A stretch of 47,300 nucleotides of DNA from Actinomycetota bacterium. GTDB taxonomy: Bacteria; Actinomycetota; CADDZG01; WHSQ01. Within the stretch, counting starts at the first letter, position 1, and each line of letters begins with the position of its first letter. The position numbers and the translations under genes were made by a program. Below, in pieces: positions 20,326-47,300 of this stretch. The stretch spans positions 1 through 47,300 of the forward strand of contig WHSQ01000022.1 of the NCBI GenBank assembly GCA_009380005.1. Direction: 5' to 3'. Below the pieces are notes generated by a model. That model was given only the letters and a program-made list of their open reading frames with translations, was not told where the DNA came from and made no database searches.

Positions 20326-20853
20326 CTAGACGATGTTGAGAGTCCCGCCGAGCGCAACGTCGAGATCAAGGGTCTCTTCGCCGCCGCCAACGATGCCAAC
20401 ACGCAGCACGTCGCCGACCATCAGGCCGCCGACGTAGGTCTCAAGGTTGAACTCAATCGCGGGCTCCGCGTCGAGTTCTGCGGCGTAGCCTTCGTCGGCA
20501 TACGCAACGATGTCGTTGTTCTTGAACAGAACCACCGAAGCCGTGTCGGCCGCCTCAGGGGCGATCAGGCCATGGTCAACGTCAACGCCGGTCACCTTCA
20601 CGCGCACAGCGTTGCCCGGAGGGCCGCTGTAGATCACGCCGGGCTCGCCGTCGAGGTCGATACCGTTCACCGGGGTCTCACCGGTACGGCCTTCCGCCGT
20701 GCCACTGTAGGTCCAGTCGCCGTTGATGACGGGGGCCGCGCCTTCAAGGGCTAGAGCCTCAGCTCCTTCGGCCACAACGGCGGCGGCGGTAGCTTCGGAC
20801 ATATCCGCCGAAAAATCGACGGCTTCAAGTTTTACGCTATTGGTCAGAGTCAT
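20326..20853 (-). CDS. Virion-region protein, possible head decoration, unknown
   Basis: 175 residues, acidic and rich in Ala, Gly, Val and Asp, with an alternating beta-strand pattern and no cysteine or membrane span. I do not recognise the family. It sits between the 2OG-oxygenase-like gene and the capsid gene, where head fibre or decoration proteins are often found, so that role is a guess from position. Translation starts at the ATG at 20853 with AGGA nine bases upstream, overlapping the end of the preceding gene by 17 bases. Confidence 0.65.
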   Translation of the reverse strand: MTLTNSVKLEAVDFSADMSEATAAAVVAEGAEALALEGAAPVINGDWTYSGTAEGRTGETPVNGIDLDGEPGVIYSGPPGNAVRVKVTGVDVDHGLIAPEAADTASVVLFKNNDIVAYADEGYAAELDAEPAIEFNLETYVGGLMVGDVLRVGIVGGGEETLDLDVALGGTLNIV

Positions 20854-21505
20854 TTTCTTTTTCCTGCTTGGGAGGGATGTACTTAAGGATCGTCGCGTTA
20901 CACGAAATGGCGATCCTTTCGCCGCTACGCACCGGATGGACGAAGTGGGGGAACCACGACGGAAAGATGATCATCTGTCCCGACTTCGGAGTGATCCGAA
21001 AAGCCGTTTGGAACTTCAGACCCTTCCGCTGGTAGCCGGAGCTACCCCGTGTGTCCACGAACTCAATATCGCCTGGACGGACGCGGGCTCCCGTTGCCAT
21101 TGTTATTTCATCGGCCTCATCGGTGTCCACGTAGTAGACGCCGGAGAAGTGACAATTTGGGTGGGAGTGGACCGTGGCGTAACCGCCATTGGTATAGACC
21201 ATCCCCCAGGCCATCATGTGGATGTCACATTCGCCTTGGGGGTCGGCCCCATAGGTTCCCGCATAGGCGCGGAAACTTTCACCGAACATCTGGCTCAGCT
21301 TCTTCCCGGCCTCTCCGGTCCACCGGAGTAAGCCGTCGTCGCTGTGCCAGGTGCCGGCCGTATTAGATCGGTACAGACCTGTAGGGTCCTCCTCCCGACG
21401 CTTGTAAATCGCCTCCTTCAACTGCCGGTTAAGATCGGCCGTGTCCTCCCACTCCTTGGCGCCGACGTGTGTGGGGAAGGCGCTCATAATCTGGAGCGGA
21501 GACAT
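20837..21505 (-). CDS. 2-oxoglutarate/Fe(II) oxygenase-like protein
   Basis: 222 residues. The core HSHPNCHFSGVYYVD (from residue 113) and SGQMIIFPSWFPHFVHPV with GERIAISCN (175-203) match the style of putative 2OG-Fe(II) oxygenases found in phages and bacteria (TIGR02466 type). Candidate metal ligands are His113 or His115 and His187 or His190; Arg197 is the likely 2-oxoglutarate ligand. These enzymes hydroxylate proteins, nucleic acids or small molecules; the target here is unknown. It is located inside the head-gene cluster, between scaffold and capsid, with its ATG overlapping the scaffold stop (CTAATG). Confidence 0.8.
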   Translation of the reverse strand: MSPLQIMSAFPTHVGAKEWEDTADLNRQLKEAIYKRREEDPTGLYRSNTAGTWHSDDGLLRWTGEAGKKLSQMFGESFRAYAGTYGADPQGECDIHMMAWGMVYTNGGYATVHSHPNCHFSGVYYVDTDEADEITMATGARVRPGDIEFVDTRGSSGYQRKGLKFQTAFRITPKSGQMIIFPSWFPHFVHPVRSGERIAISCNATILKYIPPKQEKENDSDQ

Positions 21506-25251: not shown

Positions 25252-25272
25252 TGCACTGGTCCTGATTTGGGC
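25252..25272 (-). promoter_or_regulatory. Putative late phage promoter, motif A (copy 3)
   Basis: Minus strand CCAAATCAGGACCAGTGCA, a variant of the word at 14-39. It lies directly downstream of a strong terminator and upstream of the virion operon, exactly where transcription would have to be restarted for late genes. This context makes it the best-supported copy. Polymerase specificity is inferred. Confidence 0.55.
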
Positions 25273-26018: not shown

Positions 26019-26640
26019 TTATCACCTTCTTTAGTAGACGATCATGTTGAAGGAGAAACCACGCCCGCGCGGTATCCGCCCGCATCGGCACGATCTCCTC
26101 GAAGCGCGGATTGGGCATGTCGCCCCACGTCGTTGCGCTCCGGTTGATGCTGAGGAGGTCCCGCCGCTCGGTGGCGAGGGCTATCAGGTCATAACCCTTG
26201 ACGGTGCGGGCGATGCTCGGACCGTCCATGACGCCAAGCGCCACGAACACCGCATTCTCCACGCGCCGCTCCAGCGCCTTGAATTCGGGGACGATCCACT
26301 TGACCTGTGACACGATGTCCCCGGTGTACGCCTCCGCGCTGTCGTGGTGCAGGCCGGCATAGACAACCTCAGTTGGGTAGCCGTCCTCCTCCAGCCATCG
26401 CGACACCAAGCAAGCGTGCTGGGCGACGGAGTAGTGGTCTACCCCTGGACGAAGGTGGCCGTTGTAGCGACACTGGCGAGACAGCGCAGCGGCGATGTCC
26501 TCCACGTTCACCTCCTCCGGCCGAGGATCAGCCAGGAAGAAAGCTCTCCCGGAAGCGGTCTGCTGCCACGGGCCCCGGTTCGTCACCTGCTGACACAGGC
26601 GCGTGTAGGTGTCGTTCTGACCTAAAACGGGCTGATCCAT
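25990..26640 (-). CDS. HD-domain phosphohydrolase (YfbR/DatZ-like)
   Basis: 216 residues from the ATG at 26640, chosen for its GGAGG site; the open frame extends further. Visible motifs are CRYNGHLRPGVDHYSVAQHA (first metal His near 75) and GLHHDSAEAYTGD (HD pair at 99-100 and Glu103), the pattern of HD 5'-nucleotidases or dNTP triphosphohydrolases. In some phages a related enzyme (DatZ) removes dATP beside PurZ and MazZ, but no PurZ-like gene is seen here. It sits between exonuclease and the DUF5664-like gene, overlapping both, which supports a role in nucleotide supply. Confidence 0.82.
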   Translation of the reverse strand: MDQPVLGQNDTYTRLCQQVTNRGPWQQTASGRAFFLADPRPEEVNVEDIAAALSRQCRYNGHLRPGVDHYSVAQHACLVSRWLEEDGYPTEVVYAGLHHDSAEAYTGDIVSQVKWIVPEFKALERRVENAVFVALGVMDGPSIARTVKGYDLIALATERRDLLSINRSATTWGDMPNPRFEEIVPMRADTARAWFLLQHDRLLKKVINERHAAKAV

Positions 26641-27440
26641 TCCACCTCCTTCGGGTTCGGATGCCACAGGCGAACCTTCTTCGTCTTGTAGTCGTAGTCC
26701 CCGTATCTCAGGATGCGGGCGCAACGCGCATTCATTAGCGCCTCGTCAAAGGCGTTGTCGCACGTGAACTTCGGTGTCCACTTGGGATCATCGAACTGGT
26801 CAACGAAGACATGTAGGACGGCCTCCCACAGCGCGGGCGTACCCCGTGCGAGAGCCAGCGCCGCCCGCGCCTTCACGGGCCCAGCGCCCGGCGCGCCCTT
26901 GTAGACATCAACCGTGTCGCCGGTAATCGTCTGGTACATCCAGTTGTAGTCCGCGGCCGCCACCGAGAGCTTCTGTGGCTTGTCGTCCTTGTCCGGGTTG
27001 AACAGGCGGCAGGGGATCGTCAGCAGGTCCTTGTCGATGGTCACGACGATGTACTTGCCGGCGTCCTCGCCCGTCGCCATCAGGCCCAGCGTGTCGTCCC
27101 CCTCAAGTCCGGGGAGAGAGACGTGCTGGTACTTGTTCTTCAGGTGAGACAGCACCTCATCGTGGAGGGGCGGCTTCTCGTCAGGCCGGTTGGCCTTGTA
27201 CGTCGGACAGACATGGAACCGGAATGAGGTCTTGGGCGCCGAGCGGTCCGAGAACACGAGCAGTGCCTTCTTGGCGCCGGACTTCTTCAGCCAGTTCGCA
27301 ACGAGCCCGTCCGCCGCTTCCTTCGCCCCCTTGGCATTGGCGTGGACGGCCGGCCCCTCTCCGTCGCCCCAATCCACCGTATCCACCGACACGGCGGCGG
27401 CGCGGTAGCAAATGATGTCGGCGTCAATCAGCGCGATCAT
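26622..27440 (-). CDS. 5'-3' exonuclease, gp6-like (FEN/PIN type)
   Basis: 272 residues (T7 gp6 is 300). Acidic metal-site motifs are in order: MIALIDADIICYRAA at the N-terminus, SFRFHVCPTYKANR, LPGLEGDDTLGLMA (near residue 110), IVVTIDKDLLTIPC, and TGDTVDVYKGAPGAGPVKA, the helix-two-turn-helix DNA grip. In T7 this enzyme removes RNA primers and degrades host DNA. The start overlaps the protease stop (ATGA), so both are translated together. Confidence 0.92.
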   Translation of the reverse strand: MIALIDADIICYRAAAVSVDTVDWGDGEGPAVHANAKGAKEAADGLVANWLKKSGAKKALLVFSDRSAPKTSFRFHVCPTYKANRPDEKPPLHDEVLSHLKNKYQHVSLPGLEGDDTLGLMATGEDAGKYIVVTIDKDLLTIPCRLFNPDKDDKPQKLSVAAADYNWMYQTITGDTVDVYKGAPGAGPVKARAALALARGTPALWEAVLHVFVDQFDDPKWTPKFTCDNAFDEALMNARCARILRYGDYDYKTKKVRLWHPNPKEVEWISPF

Positions 27441-28120
27441 ATGCTCCTCCCCAGCAGGGCGCAGATGGAAGCCGTCGAGACCGCGTAGGTCTGCTGCGTC
27501 AGGGACACGCTCCAGCCCATCAGATACACGCTGAGGTGGCTCGGCAACCCGATCAGCTTCCCGTCTGAATTGAACAGGCCGCCGCCCGAGTTGCCAGGTA
27601 GGACGTTGAGGTCGGTCTGTAAATAGGCCCCCCGGTCCGCCGATATGTGCCCGAACGTGACGCTCCAGTCCTCGCCGAGAGGATGCCCGATGGCGTACAC
27701 CTCATCGCCCACGCGCGGTCGGCGACAGGAAACCCGCGCGGCCTCCACTGGCAGGATTGGGCGGATGCGGACCAGGGCGGCGTCGTACGCCTCCTCAGAA
27801 ACCCACATACGCTCTCCGACGTAGGTTGCCCCGTCGCGCAGCGTGACGCGGAACGATGCCGCATCGGCTACGACATGGCGGTTGGTCAGGATCAGGCCGT
27901 CCTCGGCAATGATCACGCCGGAGGCCGTGGCTTCCCCGCCATCTGTCGTGGTTACTTCGATCTTGACGACTTGGGATTGAGAGACCTCAAGCGGGTCCCG
28001 CATGTCTACCAGCAGGTAGGCCGCAACTCCCACAAGCGCGACGGCTATCCCGAGAATGAATGCGGCAGACACGTCGTCCCAGAAGTGGGGGCCTAATCGG
28101 ATACTCTTTCGTCTTTTCAT
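27437..28120 (-). CDS. Membrane-anchored trypsin-like serine protease (DegS-like)
   Basis: 227 residues. A basic N-terminus and a membrane span (about 18-38, AAFILGIAVALVGVAAYLLV) precede a trypsin/HtrA-type domain with a full catalytic triad: His82 in LTNRHVVA, Asp113 in YDAALVRI, Ser178 in LPGNSGGGLF. No PDZ domain follows, and the protein stops soon after the protease fold. The topology (N-in, protease outside the cytoplasmic membrane) is that of DegS, which starts the sigma-E envelope response. It lies between DNA polymerase and exonuclease, overlapping the latter by four bases. Substrate unknown. I know of no T7 counterpart. Confidence 0.88.
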   Translation of the reverse strand: MKRRKSIRLGPHFWDDVSAAFILGIAVALVGVAAYLLVDMRDPLEVSQSQVVKIEVTTTDGGEATASGVIIAEDGLILTNRHVVADAASFRVTLRDGATYVGERMWVSEEAYDAALVRIRPILPVEAARVSCRRPRVGDEVYAIGHPLGEDWSVTFGHISADRGAYLQTDLNVLPGNSGGGLFNSDGKLIGLPSHLSVYLMGWSVSLTQQTYAVSTASICALLGRSI

Positions 28121-28129
28121 CGTGTCTCC

Positions 28130-30010
28130 TTAATGGGTGCGCGACCAATCGGGGCCGATCTTGGCGGTGGCAGTTAGTGGGCACCGGAAGCCGAGTTCGC
28201 GGCCGGCGCGGAAAATGCACTCCACGACGACCTTGCCGACCTCCTCCGCGACTTCCGGGAGGGCTTCGATCTGGAACTCGTCGTGAACCTGCATGACCAC
28301 GCCGTAGTCCCGGTCCTCGACCAGTCCACGAGTGGACAGTTCCGGGCAAATGAAGGTCCACGCCTTTTTCACGATAATGATGCCGGCGGATTGCAACAGG
28401 AAGTTGAGGGCGGAATGCTCGCTGCGTATCCACAGCGTCCGCCCGTCGAGCCCGCGGAGCTTGCCGGTCTCCTTGGCCTTGGCTCGGATGGCGTTGACCA
28501 GAGGGCCGAGGCCGGTAATGCCCTCCTCAAGCCGGGAACGCAGCGCCTTGCCCACGACGTTGTTGGGTGGCTTGCGCTTGCCCTTGACCGGGATGCCGAG
28601 CCCGGCGTAGTCAATGTCCTTCCCTGCCTTGTACGCATCCTGATAGGCGATCAGCCCGAGCTTGGCGTCCCCTGCTCCGTACAGCCAGCCATACTCGGCC
28701 CGTTTCACTTCTTCCCGTATGTTAAAACACAACAGGCGCATGGCGGCCGTGTGAACGTCCGTGCCCTTCTCTTCGTCCCCCTCAACCAACATCTTTACGT
28801 AGGCGCCGCCGTCGAACGGCCACAGGTAATGGGACAGACAACGAAGTTCTAAGCCCTTCGAGTCCACGCCCACGAGGACCTTGCCCGGCGCGGCGATCCA
28901 CGCCTTGCGCATTCTCTTGTCGGTGGACGCCTGCTGGACGTTGGGTGAGGAACAGGACAGGCGGCCGGTGACAGCCTTGAGCGGATTGAGTGAGGCGTGA
29001 ACCCGCCCGTCCGCCTTGACGTGGTGCAGCCAGCCCCCGCCGCTGCCATTCGCCTTGATGGGGGCGTTGACTTGGCCGAGCAGCTTGTCCACGACGAGGT
29101 AGTCCGCGAAGCGCTGGGCCTCCTCGTAGGGGAGTTCGCGTAGAATGTCCTCGCTGACTTCGGCCATCCCCGATGGTGTGTAGTGCGGCGGCTTCCACCC
29201 GTACTTAGAGACAAGGCGCCGCGTGATCTGCTGGCGGGAGCCCGGATTGAACTCTTCCACGTCGAGCGGGCAGTAGGCTTCGCCCGGCGTCAGCTTGCCG
29301 GCCATGGGGTGGTTCTTGTTGATGTTCTTGAGAACCTTGGCGGGCTTCGTCCGTGACTTGGGCACGAGGACCGGCGGGAACAGGAGGCGGAACTCTTCCT
29401 TCAGCGCCTCCTGCTCTTTCAGGAAGATGTTAATCAAGGTCTGGCAGTGTTCAGTGTCCAGCCGGAACCCGCGCTGGATCACCTTCATCACCTCATGGGC
29501 GATGACGTGTTCGGTGGCGACCGCTTGCGGCATGGCTTCGTACATGCCAACCAGCCGCTTGTAGACTTCCAGCGTAATCTTGGCGTCGGTGTTGCAGCGG
29601 TGTTCCATTTTGAAGGACCACCGCGTCCAGTCCTCGTGCTCCACCTTCGCCAGCGGCACCGCCAGGCGCTCGCCCCACGACTCAAGCGAGTGGCCGCCTT
29701 GCCGCTCGGGATTGCCGAGGCGGGACAGGACAAGGGTGTCACAGACCTTCCCCCAATCCAGCGGGTAGCGGTCGCCGTAGACCTTGGTGATGGCGGGCAG
29801 GTCGTAGCCGAGACCGTGGTGGAAGACGAGACGGTCGGCGCCAACCAAGCGGCGCAGTCCCGCGTCCAGCGAGCGCCCGTGCGTAAGACCGCCATGGTCG
29901 TTGTACGACCCCAACTCGCCTGTGTCCGCGTCGATGATGCTCAACTGCCAGATGGTGGTTAACTCTGGCAGAAGTCCATCAGCCTCCAGGTCCACGATCA
30001 GCGTTGTCAT
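28130..30010 (-). CDS. DNA polymerase, family A, gp5-like
   Basis: 626 residues (T7 gp5 is 704). Proofreading exonuclease motifs: LIVDLEADGL at the N-terminus, LVFHHGLGYDLPAI, and HRCNTDAKITLEVYKRL. Polymerase motifs: A in LVGVDSKGLELRCLSHYL, B in VKRAEYGWLYGAGDAKLG, C in VMQVHDEFQIEA. The ATG at 30010 follows CAGGAGAC and overlaps the stop of the endonuclease gene before it (ATGA). A dispersed palindromic box lies just upstream and another inside the gene (28325-28338). It replicates the phage genome, probably with host thioredoxin as in T7, although the thioredoxin loop was not identified. Confidence 0.95.
   Translation of the reverse strand: MTTLIVDLEADGLLPELTTIWQLSIIDADTGELGSYNDHGGLTHGRSLDAGLRRLVGADRLVFHHGLGYDLPAITKVYGDRYPLDWGKVCDTLVLSRLGNPERQGGHSLESWGERLAVPLAKVEHEDWTRWSFKMEHRCNTDAKITLEVYKRLVGMYEAMPQAVATEHVIAHEVMKVIQRGFRLDTEHCQTLINIFLKEQEALKEEFRLLFPPVLVPKSRTKPAKVLKNINKNHPMAGKLTPGEAYCPLDVEEFNPGSRQQITRRLVSKYGWKPPHYTPSGMAEVSEDILRELPYEEAQRFADYLVVDKLLGQVNAPIKANGSGGGWLHHVKADGRVHASLNPLKAVTGRLSCSSPNVQQASTDKRMRKAWIAAPGKVLVGVDSKGLELRCLSHYLWPFDGGAYVKMLVEGDEEKGTDVHTAAMRLLCFNIREEVKRAEYGWLYGAGDAKLGLIAYQDAYKAGKDIDYAGLGIPVKGKRKPPNNVVGKALRSRLEEGITGLGPLVNAIRAKAKETGKLRGLDGRTLWIRSEHSALNFLLQSAGIIIVKKAWTFICPELSTRGLVEDRDYGVVMQVHDEFQIEALPEVAEEVGKVVVECIFRAGRELGFRCPLTATAKIGPDWSRTH
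28325..28338 (-). promoter_or_regulatory. Dispersed box inside DNA polymerase gene
   Basis: GTCCACGAGTGGAC, a perfect six-base inverted repeat with two central bases, identical to the box just before the polymerase start. It is inside coding sequence, about 200 bases upstream of the protease gene, so it could serve that gene or be a fortuitous copy. Confidence 0.4.
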
Positions 30011-30486
30011 GGCGTCTCCTGTCCACGAGTGGACTTGTTTAGGCAAGGCAAAGCCGGGGGGTTAATGACGTATGCCAGCCAGGGGCCCCATAGGTGGTCC
30101 CGTTTTTCCAAAAGTCCTAGGTGTCTGTTACAGGACATACACAGGAGGCCGCGATTTAGTCCGGAGGCGTGACAATGATCAACCGCAAACGCGGCCTCCG
30201 GCGTCGATCCCATTGGGTCTCGCGACCGGCACGTGGCGCACTGACCACCCTGCGCGTCGCATTGAGCATCATAGTCTGCCAGCGATATGTCGTATTTCCT
30301 TCTGTAGTGCCGCTTCCGGCGGGCTTCCAAATACGCCTCCCTGTTGTTCTGGTAGCACTCCCGCCCATCCGCCGCGCCACAGCCCTGACACCTACTCTGG
30401 AGGCCGTCTGAGCGGCCCGCGTGCTTATTAAACTCCCCCCTGGGCTTCTCCTGCTTGCACTTCGAGCACCTTTTCAACGCCGCCAT
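30007..30486 (-). CDS. Endonuclease VII/HNH-type free-standing endonuclease
   Basis: 159 residues. An N-terminal zinc ribbon (Cys7, Cys10, Cys33, Cys36: CSKCKQEKPRGEF, then CQGCGA) precedes the endonuclease VII core CATCRSRDP and VDHCHASGLNRGLLCMSCNRHLG. The layout is the same as the intron-encoded enzyme of the capsid gene, though the sequences differ. It starts inside the stop of the preceding HNH gene (TGATG) and ends over the polymerase start (ATGA). Such genes beside DNA polymerase are often homing enzymes that cut phage relatives. Confidence 0.87.
   Translation of the reverse strand: MAALKRCSKCKQEKPRGEFNKHAGRSDGLQSRCQGCGAADGRECYQNNREAYLEARRKRHYRRKYDISLADYDAQCDAQGGQCATCRSRDPMGSTPEAAFAVDHCHASGLNRGLLCMSCNRHLGLLEKRDHLWGPWLAYVINPPALPCLNKSTRGQETP
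30021..30046 (-). promoter_or_regulatory. Dispersed box upstream of DNA polymerase
   Basis: Minus strand TTGCCTAAACAAGTCCACTC followed by GTGGAC: a TTGCCT element and then a perfect inverted repeat GTCCACTCGTGGAC. The same arrangement precedes several middle genes. The polymerase ATG lies 10 bases downstream with its ribosome site in between. It may be a promoter or operator. Confidence 0.55.
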
Positions 30487-34276: not shown

Positions 34277-34322
34277 CCCGCACTGGTCCTACTTTGGCTG
34301 TCCACCAGTGGACCGGTGCCAA
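34277..34322 (-). promoter_or_regulatory. Double element: motif A promoter and dispersed box before SSB
   Basis: On the minus strand TTTGGCACC and a perfect palindrome GTCCACTGGTGGAC come first, immediately followed by CCAAAGTAGGACCAGTGCGG. The run TGGACAG plus the motif is identical to the copy at 14-39. This is the only place where both recurrent words are complete and adjacent. Confidence 0.55.
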
Positions 34323-41312: not shown

Positions 41313-41397
41313 TGGTACGGGCGCCCGGACTTGAACCGGGACCCCTTGCAGGGAGCGGGGTTTAGGCCCGCCGCGTCTACCATTCCGCCACGCCCGC
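41313..41397 (-). tRNA. tRNA-Leu (UAA)-like gene, probable attachment site
   Basis: 85 nt that fold as a class II tRNA: a 7-bp acceptor (GCGGGCG with CGCCCGT, one G.U), D arm GCGGAATGGTAGACGC, anticodon stem GCGGG/CCCGC with loop CCTAAAC (anticodon TAA), variable stem CCCT/AGGG, T arm CCCGG-TTCAAGT-CCGGG and encoded CCA. Position 33 is C where U is nearly universal. It lies 44 bases beyond a small gene downstream of the integrase, as expected for attP of a phage that integrates into a host tRNA-Leu gene. Alternatively it supplies a tRNA for rare UUA codons. Confidence 0.85.
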
Positions 41398-47245: not shown

Positions 47246-47300
47246 TAGCCCCGTGCTCCGCACTGGTCCTACTTTGGCTGTCCATACCCTGTTACTCATC
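47246..47300. repeat. Terminal direct repeat, right copy
   Basis: Identical to bases 1-55. The overlap closes the contig to a circle of 47,245 bases. It includes the same motif A promoter copy as the left edge. Confidence 0.9.

Follow-up and report, generated by a model that had tools for sequence, protein, structure and literature searches.

Among the proteins closest to the one analysed here, DegS has an N-terminal anchor and a protease domain followed by one PDZ domain, and the cyanobacterial HtrA protease HhoA also carries a PDZ domain. DegP and DegQ (Do family) usually remove misfolded exported proteins, and in DegP-type quality control the PDZ domains serve the assembly of cages. Phages carry a protease family of their own, PHROG 9683 ('protease'), with members in Rhizobium phages RHph_X2_25 and RHph_TM3_3_14B, Sinorhizobium phage AP-16-3 and phage KZY1. 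To our knowledge, phages are rarely credited with enzymes at the outer face of the membrane, lysis aside.

Here we analyse a protease gene on a stretch of 47,300 nucleotides (the window) binned into an Actinomycetota assembly. Its product resembles DegS and AlgW in the fold of the protease domain and in the N-terminal anchor but differs from both in having no PDZ domain, in carrying a cysteine pair, in grouping, with moderate support, with a phage clade and in scoring under the cut-off for DegS. The absence of PDZ domains also separates it from HhoA and from DegP/DegQ, whose family cut-off it likewise fails to reach, whereas the membrane anchor sets it apart from the single-domain Trypsin_2 peptidases, whose profile it matches above the cut-off. 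With PHROG 9683 it shares the anchor, the catalytic triad, the absence of PDZ and both cysteines (Cys132 and Cys220). It differs in keeping Asn177, as cellular HtrAs do, where 38 of 41 clade rows have Gln or Met, and in lying in a T7-like replication unit, while the relatives lie in a temperate-phage operon with an HTH-metallophosphoesterase.

The protease gene and its carrier phage

The window begins and ends with the same exact 55-base repeat (1-55 and 47246-47300), which very likely makes it a complete genome that closes into a circle of 47,245 bases. It encodes a T7-type RNA polymerase, primase-helicase, polymerase A and 5'-3' exonuclease as well as portal, capsid, tail and internal virion proteins, terminase and integrase. 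A complete tRNA-Leu (taa) gene adjoins the integrase (41313-41397), the rest of the assembly yielding no similar copy, and a 2OG-Fe(II) oxygenase gene lies amid the head gene cluster (20837-21505).

The protease gene (Table 1) matches Pfam Trypsin_2 (PF13365; E 8.6e-30, 104.8 bits vs. a cut-off of 27.6), and this score, together with relatives in other phages, excludes a chance reading frame. His82, Asp113 and Ser178 stand in order within the motifs TNRHVV, YDAALV and PGNSGGG, of which PGNSGG is the HtrA signature. We compared the protein with a family alignment of 43 rows (37 viral-contig loci, four phage-record relatives, the window and C266, a second phage contig described below); the 37 loci were chosen from the 80 of one search by the C-terminal Cys motif of the clade, and many are close kin, such that counts do not represent independent events. 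His and Ser are present in all 43 rows and Asp in 42. The one exception, the family member from Sinorhizobium phage AP-16-3 (L007, 9782-10504), carries Glu at the position of the catalytic Asp. No PDZ family was matched among the Pfam profiles, and the chain stops at the end of the protease domain. The preliminary description had proposed a complete triad, a single N-terminal anchor, no PDZ domain and a position between DNA polymerase and exonuclease, all of which hold. The gene follows a strong ribosome-binding site, and its stop codon overlaps the start of the exonuclease gene in ATGA. It encodes a real protease that, judged from these motifs and profiles, is probably active.

Table 1 Features of the protease gene and its surroundings in the window
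Feature	Coordinates	Strand	Basis or remark
Protease gene, PDZ-less, membrane-anchored, trypsin-like serine type, 227 aa	27437..28120	(-)	Open reading frame, motifs, profile, model
Codons 13-39, N-terminal helix and predicted membrane anchor	28004..28084	(-)	AlphaFold2 helix; N-in C-out orientation predicted by the positive-inside rule
His82 codon, catalytic by homology	27875..27877	(-)	H in 43/43 family rows
Asp113 codon, catalytic by homology	27782..27784	(-)	D in 42/43 family rows, E in L007
Ser178 codon in GNSGG, catalytic by homology	27587..27589	(-)	S in 43/43 family rows
Cys132 codon, half of the clade Cys pair	27725..27727	(-)	Family alignment; putative disulfide
Cys220 codon, second member of the pair, close to where the C-terminal helix begins	27461..27463	(-)	Alignment and model
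Ribosome-binding site AAGGAG of the protease	28126..28131	(-)	Overlaps the polymerase stop codon
DNA polymerase A, upstream neighbour	28130..30046	(-)	Profile matches
5'-3' exonuclease, downstream neighbour	26622..27440	(-)	Profile matches; start codon shares ATGA with the protease stop
18-nt repeat in a promoter-like position before the unit of ssDNA-binding, helicase, polymerase and protease genes	34280..34297	(-)	Reverse complement found on +
18-nt repeat copy, 2 mismatches, between nucleotide-metabolism genes and the structural unit	25253..25270	(-)	Motif scan

The second phage, C266 (30,934 bases, same assembly), is also T7-like and carries an integrase; its helicase is 39-41% identical to that of the window. 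Its protease (38% identity), encoded between helicase and polymerase, contains the lipobox-like sequence LASC. Alignments of the two helicases and of the two polymerases found viral loci, whereas the window polymerase alone as query found no viral contig. At the T7-type polymerase and helicase loci so obtained (160, the best 80 per search, not all of them distinct contigs since L097 and L179 are the same, and many ending near the genes of interest), the protease was present in 0 of 160 in a search run with a positive control. This count is consistent with the earlier remark that T7 has no such gene but falls short of proving that the protease is absent from other T7-like phages. In L096, a related viral contig, polymerase and exonuclease are separated by an 83-residue gene whose start is signal-like, and in L179 these two genes touch, which suggests that the slot between them is an accessory site.

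An 18-nt motif occurs six times in the window at up to three mismatches, against 0.02 matches expected, with two of the six representing the same place since the window ends overlap. The promoter-like repeats (15-32, 550-567, 25253-25270 and 34280-34297) all have one orientation, and the last two bracket the replication and nucleotide genes, including the protease gene. Their position and orientation suggest a role as promoters for the phage RNA polymerase, and a scan for host-type promoters gave matches at chance level only.

Fold, cysteine pair and placement among phage proteases

Structure prediction and comparison with DegS and HtrA, proposed earlier as a check, gave a confident AlphaFold2 model (pLDDT 91.6, pTM 0.82) from an alignment of 35 rows (26 of the 43 family rows, including the window but neither C266 nor the phage-record loci, together with 8 or 9 further viral rows). 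It superposes on the protease domains of AlgW, DegP and DegS at about 2 Å over 180 residues (Z 26-28). The top Foldseek match in the PDB was DegS without its PDZ domain, and the VIA-align Z scores against the protease domains of AlgW (27.7), DegP (27.6) and DegS (27.5) are ties. One named match in a viral structure library was a Rhizobium phage AF3 protein, named as an HtrA protease/chaperone, and the best PDB match by sequence was HhoA (E 2.5e-19). However, the protein reached only 77 bits with the NCBIfam DegS model (cut-off 422.95) and 100.9 bits with TIGR02037 for DegP/DegQ (cut-off 416.2). Of the description as DegS-like, under which the gene had been introduced, the HtrA-type trypsin fold and the anchor hold; the DegS label itself found no support, given the missing PDZ domain, scores far under the DegS and DegP cut-offs and the tree placement with phage proteases. 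PADLOC matches to a retron protease, LmuA and Avs1b were taken as common trypsin-fold similarity and not as evidence of a role in defence.

The hydropathy peak of the single hydrophobic segment starts at residue 22, with a net charge of +3 ahead of it and -1 behind, and a hydrophobic stretch is present at the N terminus in 42 of the 43 family rows. The protein has two cysteines in all, Cys132 and Cys220. Both occur together in the window and in 41/41 clade rows, in none of 24 cellular HtrA rows and in none of 10 other viral rows, the rows of the last two groups having neither one; C266 lacks Cys132. While the selection itself accounts for part of the Cys220 count, as 37 rows were chosen by a motif that contains it, Cys132 played no part in the selection. 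The pair lies at what we take to be the place of the trypsin disulfide Cys128-Cys232 and would form a disulfide in the window protease. Together with the anchors, it points to action outside the cytoplasm, and the protease appears, from these sequence features, to be anchored on the external side of the host cell membrane.

PHROG 9683 matches the protein from end to end (residues 35-223 on 31-221 of 233; E 5.8e-20, 72.8 bits); phrog_11383 gives a better score (107.3 bits), although it aligns only within an inner part of its 462 positions. Among 50,697 phage records searched with the protease, 23 match, several of which, judged by names and annotations, are probably of bacterial origin and were deposited as phage; a nucleotide search of the phage collection gave no match. 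A scan of genome contigs with the alignment of window and C266 yielded 56 loci that by title and match look like ordinary cellular HtrAs, with no T7-like prophage carrying the protease recognised among them on that basis.

Highest raw identity is in fact to cellular proteins (47% over 133 residues to the assembly's own L010; 38-40% to L256) vs. 27-36% to the phage clade. In a tree with 24 cellular HtrA rows, which includes 19 of the 56 loci, the window and C266 nevertheless join the 41 clade rows with a support of 100/96; L013 is not in the tree, having given no open frame under the motif rule. To guard against a grouping caused by the Cys columns, we removed these along with the anchor and three long-branch rows, and the grouping persisted (94/92). 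Forcing the window and C266, both of them long branches, among the cellular rows was rejected at the borderline (p-AU 0.0455). The tree thus places the protease, with moderate support, among phage-borne single-domain proteases and not among the 24 cellular HtrAs, and favours, without proving, its reading as a deep branch of PHROG 9683. A second set of single-domain phage proteases (L031, L033, L040, L050 and L064) has no Cys pair and forms its own group (100/100). The window protease most likely belongs to a known phage family that is little studied and uncharacterised, and the literature listings and abstract openings searched describe it nowhere.

Neighbours in relatives and the host

In relatives from temperate phages, the protease lies near genes of DNA metabolism. 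An HTH-metallophosphoesterase of about 330-630 residues (by longest open frame) is nearby at 39 of 43 loci (e.g., L005 10071-11327 and L028 8534-9523), downstream by start coordinate at 33, upstream at three and with its longest start entering the protease at three; at the remaining four loci (the window, L004, L014 and L018, the last at a contig end) it is missing. Of its members, one matches PHROG 704 ('DNA repair exonuclease') and another exceeds the Pfam Metallophos cut-off, while a PDB search with the alignment gave no match. A small MotA/TolQ/ExbB-like membrane protein follows closely at 14/43 loci, overlapping the protease by 4 bases in L005 (7486-7911) and L006 (9363-9788). It resembles ZorA (2.2e-6); one of five members passes the Pfam MotA_ExbB cut-off (23.2 bits vs. 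22.9) and the other four fall just or clearly under it. Neither neighbour was found in the window, in C266 or in the stretch of phage KZY1 examined. In KZY1, a run of peptide-ligase and gamma-glutamyl genes lies between protease and primase-helicase (L004, 5896-12358).

The assembly binned with the phage has six WhiB matches and no match to the Omp85, MotA/ExbB or RseA_N profiles, the last of which does find its match in an E. coli control. The presence of WhiB and the absence of RseA_N and Omp85 suggest an actinobacterium without an outer membrane. Among 198 genomes searched, a comparable helicase occurs in the window's own assembly alone, and the search for an integration site there returned only weak short matches and the integrase of the other phage. 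The link between the phage and this organism is thus weak, both phages may have been binned into the assembly by mistake, and as the host is uncertain, so is the compartment that the protease faces.

Possible roles of the protease

The most likely role is that of an accessory, envelope-directed factor for takeover or exclusion, and we give about an even chance to the specific reading in which an exported, tethered phage protease of HtrA fold, made with the replication genes, cuts an envelope protein to this end. The gene product would be an exported, membrane-tethered, single-domain serine peptidase (HtrA, S1C), a divergent member of the PHROG 9683 clade, with the anchor putting its catalytic domain outside the cytoplasmic membrane and a trypsin-like Cys132-Cys220 disulfide tying the C-terminal helix to the barrel. 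Having no PDZ or other sensor domain, it would probably be active without a signal, and it would be transcribed together with the replication genes in mid-infection. Our guess is that it most likely cuts a protein exposed in the envelope, either from the host or from a second phage entering the cell, and that the benefit may be takeover via superinfection exclusion or the removal of a membrane-bound defence or receptor. Degradation of a defence sensor, which the preliminary description had also suggested, or of a different envelope protein would be a candidate role.

Other roles were weighed against the same evidence. General housekeeping of the envelope, in which exported proteins that misfold would be cleared without a specific target, during infection or in the lysogen, is a possible if unlikely alternative: it is the usual job of DegP and DegQ, whose fold the protease shares, but the PDZ domains needed for a DegP-type cage are missing and the assembly already encodes several HtrAs. 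A role in maturation at the membrane, with a lysis protein or an internal virion protein as substrate, seems improbable. In relatives, lysozyme or spanin-like genes are often encoded within a few kb upstream of the protease (the lysozyme cluster touches 18/43 loci, one of them solely via a window gene 15 kb distant), yet both T7-like phages have the protease among replication genes and not among lysis or structural ones, and the repeat that precedes the structural genes is downstream of it.

Cleavage of an RseA-like anti-sigma factor, switching on the host envelope-stress regulon, had been raised in the preliminary description and found no support. DegS without PDZ is among the best folds and the anchor is shared, but a fold match is silent on substrate, and without the PDZ sensor the protease could not sense outer-membrane peptides in the manner of DegS. 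The low DegS score, the grouping with phage proteases and the lack of an RseA_N match in the weakly linked assembly all speak against such mimicry, which has little ground if the host is an actinobacterium, would be conjectural in a proteobacterium, and which we regard as very unlikely. We attach equally little credence to a recently captured host HtrA gene with no phage function. Raw identity would favour it; against it stand the tree, with or without the Cys and anchor columns, the Cys pair of the clade, the intact triad, the ribosome site and the tight packing among replication genes.

The preferred reading of an envelope-directed takeover or exclusion factor can be extended, as a highly speculative and improbable proposal, to a clade of disulfide-locked, PDZ-less phage HtrAs that serve as envelope weapons of counter-defence or exclusion. 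In the rhizobial relatives, the protease and its ZorA-channel-like partner may disarm Zorya-type motors or proton-driven envelope complexes, with the partner as decoy and the protease cutting the external part, and the T7-like phages would have kept the protease only. Retention of this exported protease family in temperate rhizobial phages, a Zobellviridae phage and T7-like phages points to a target in the envelope that is worth cutting, and this target, if found, would bring to light a receptor, a route of exclusion or a defence bound to the membrane.
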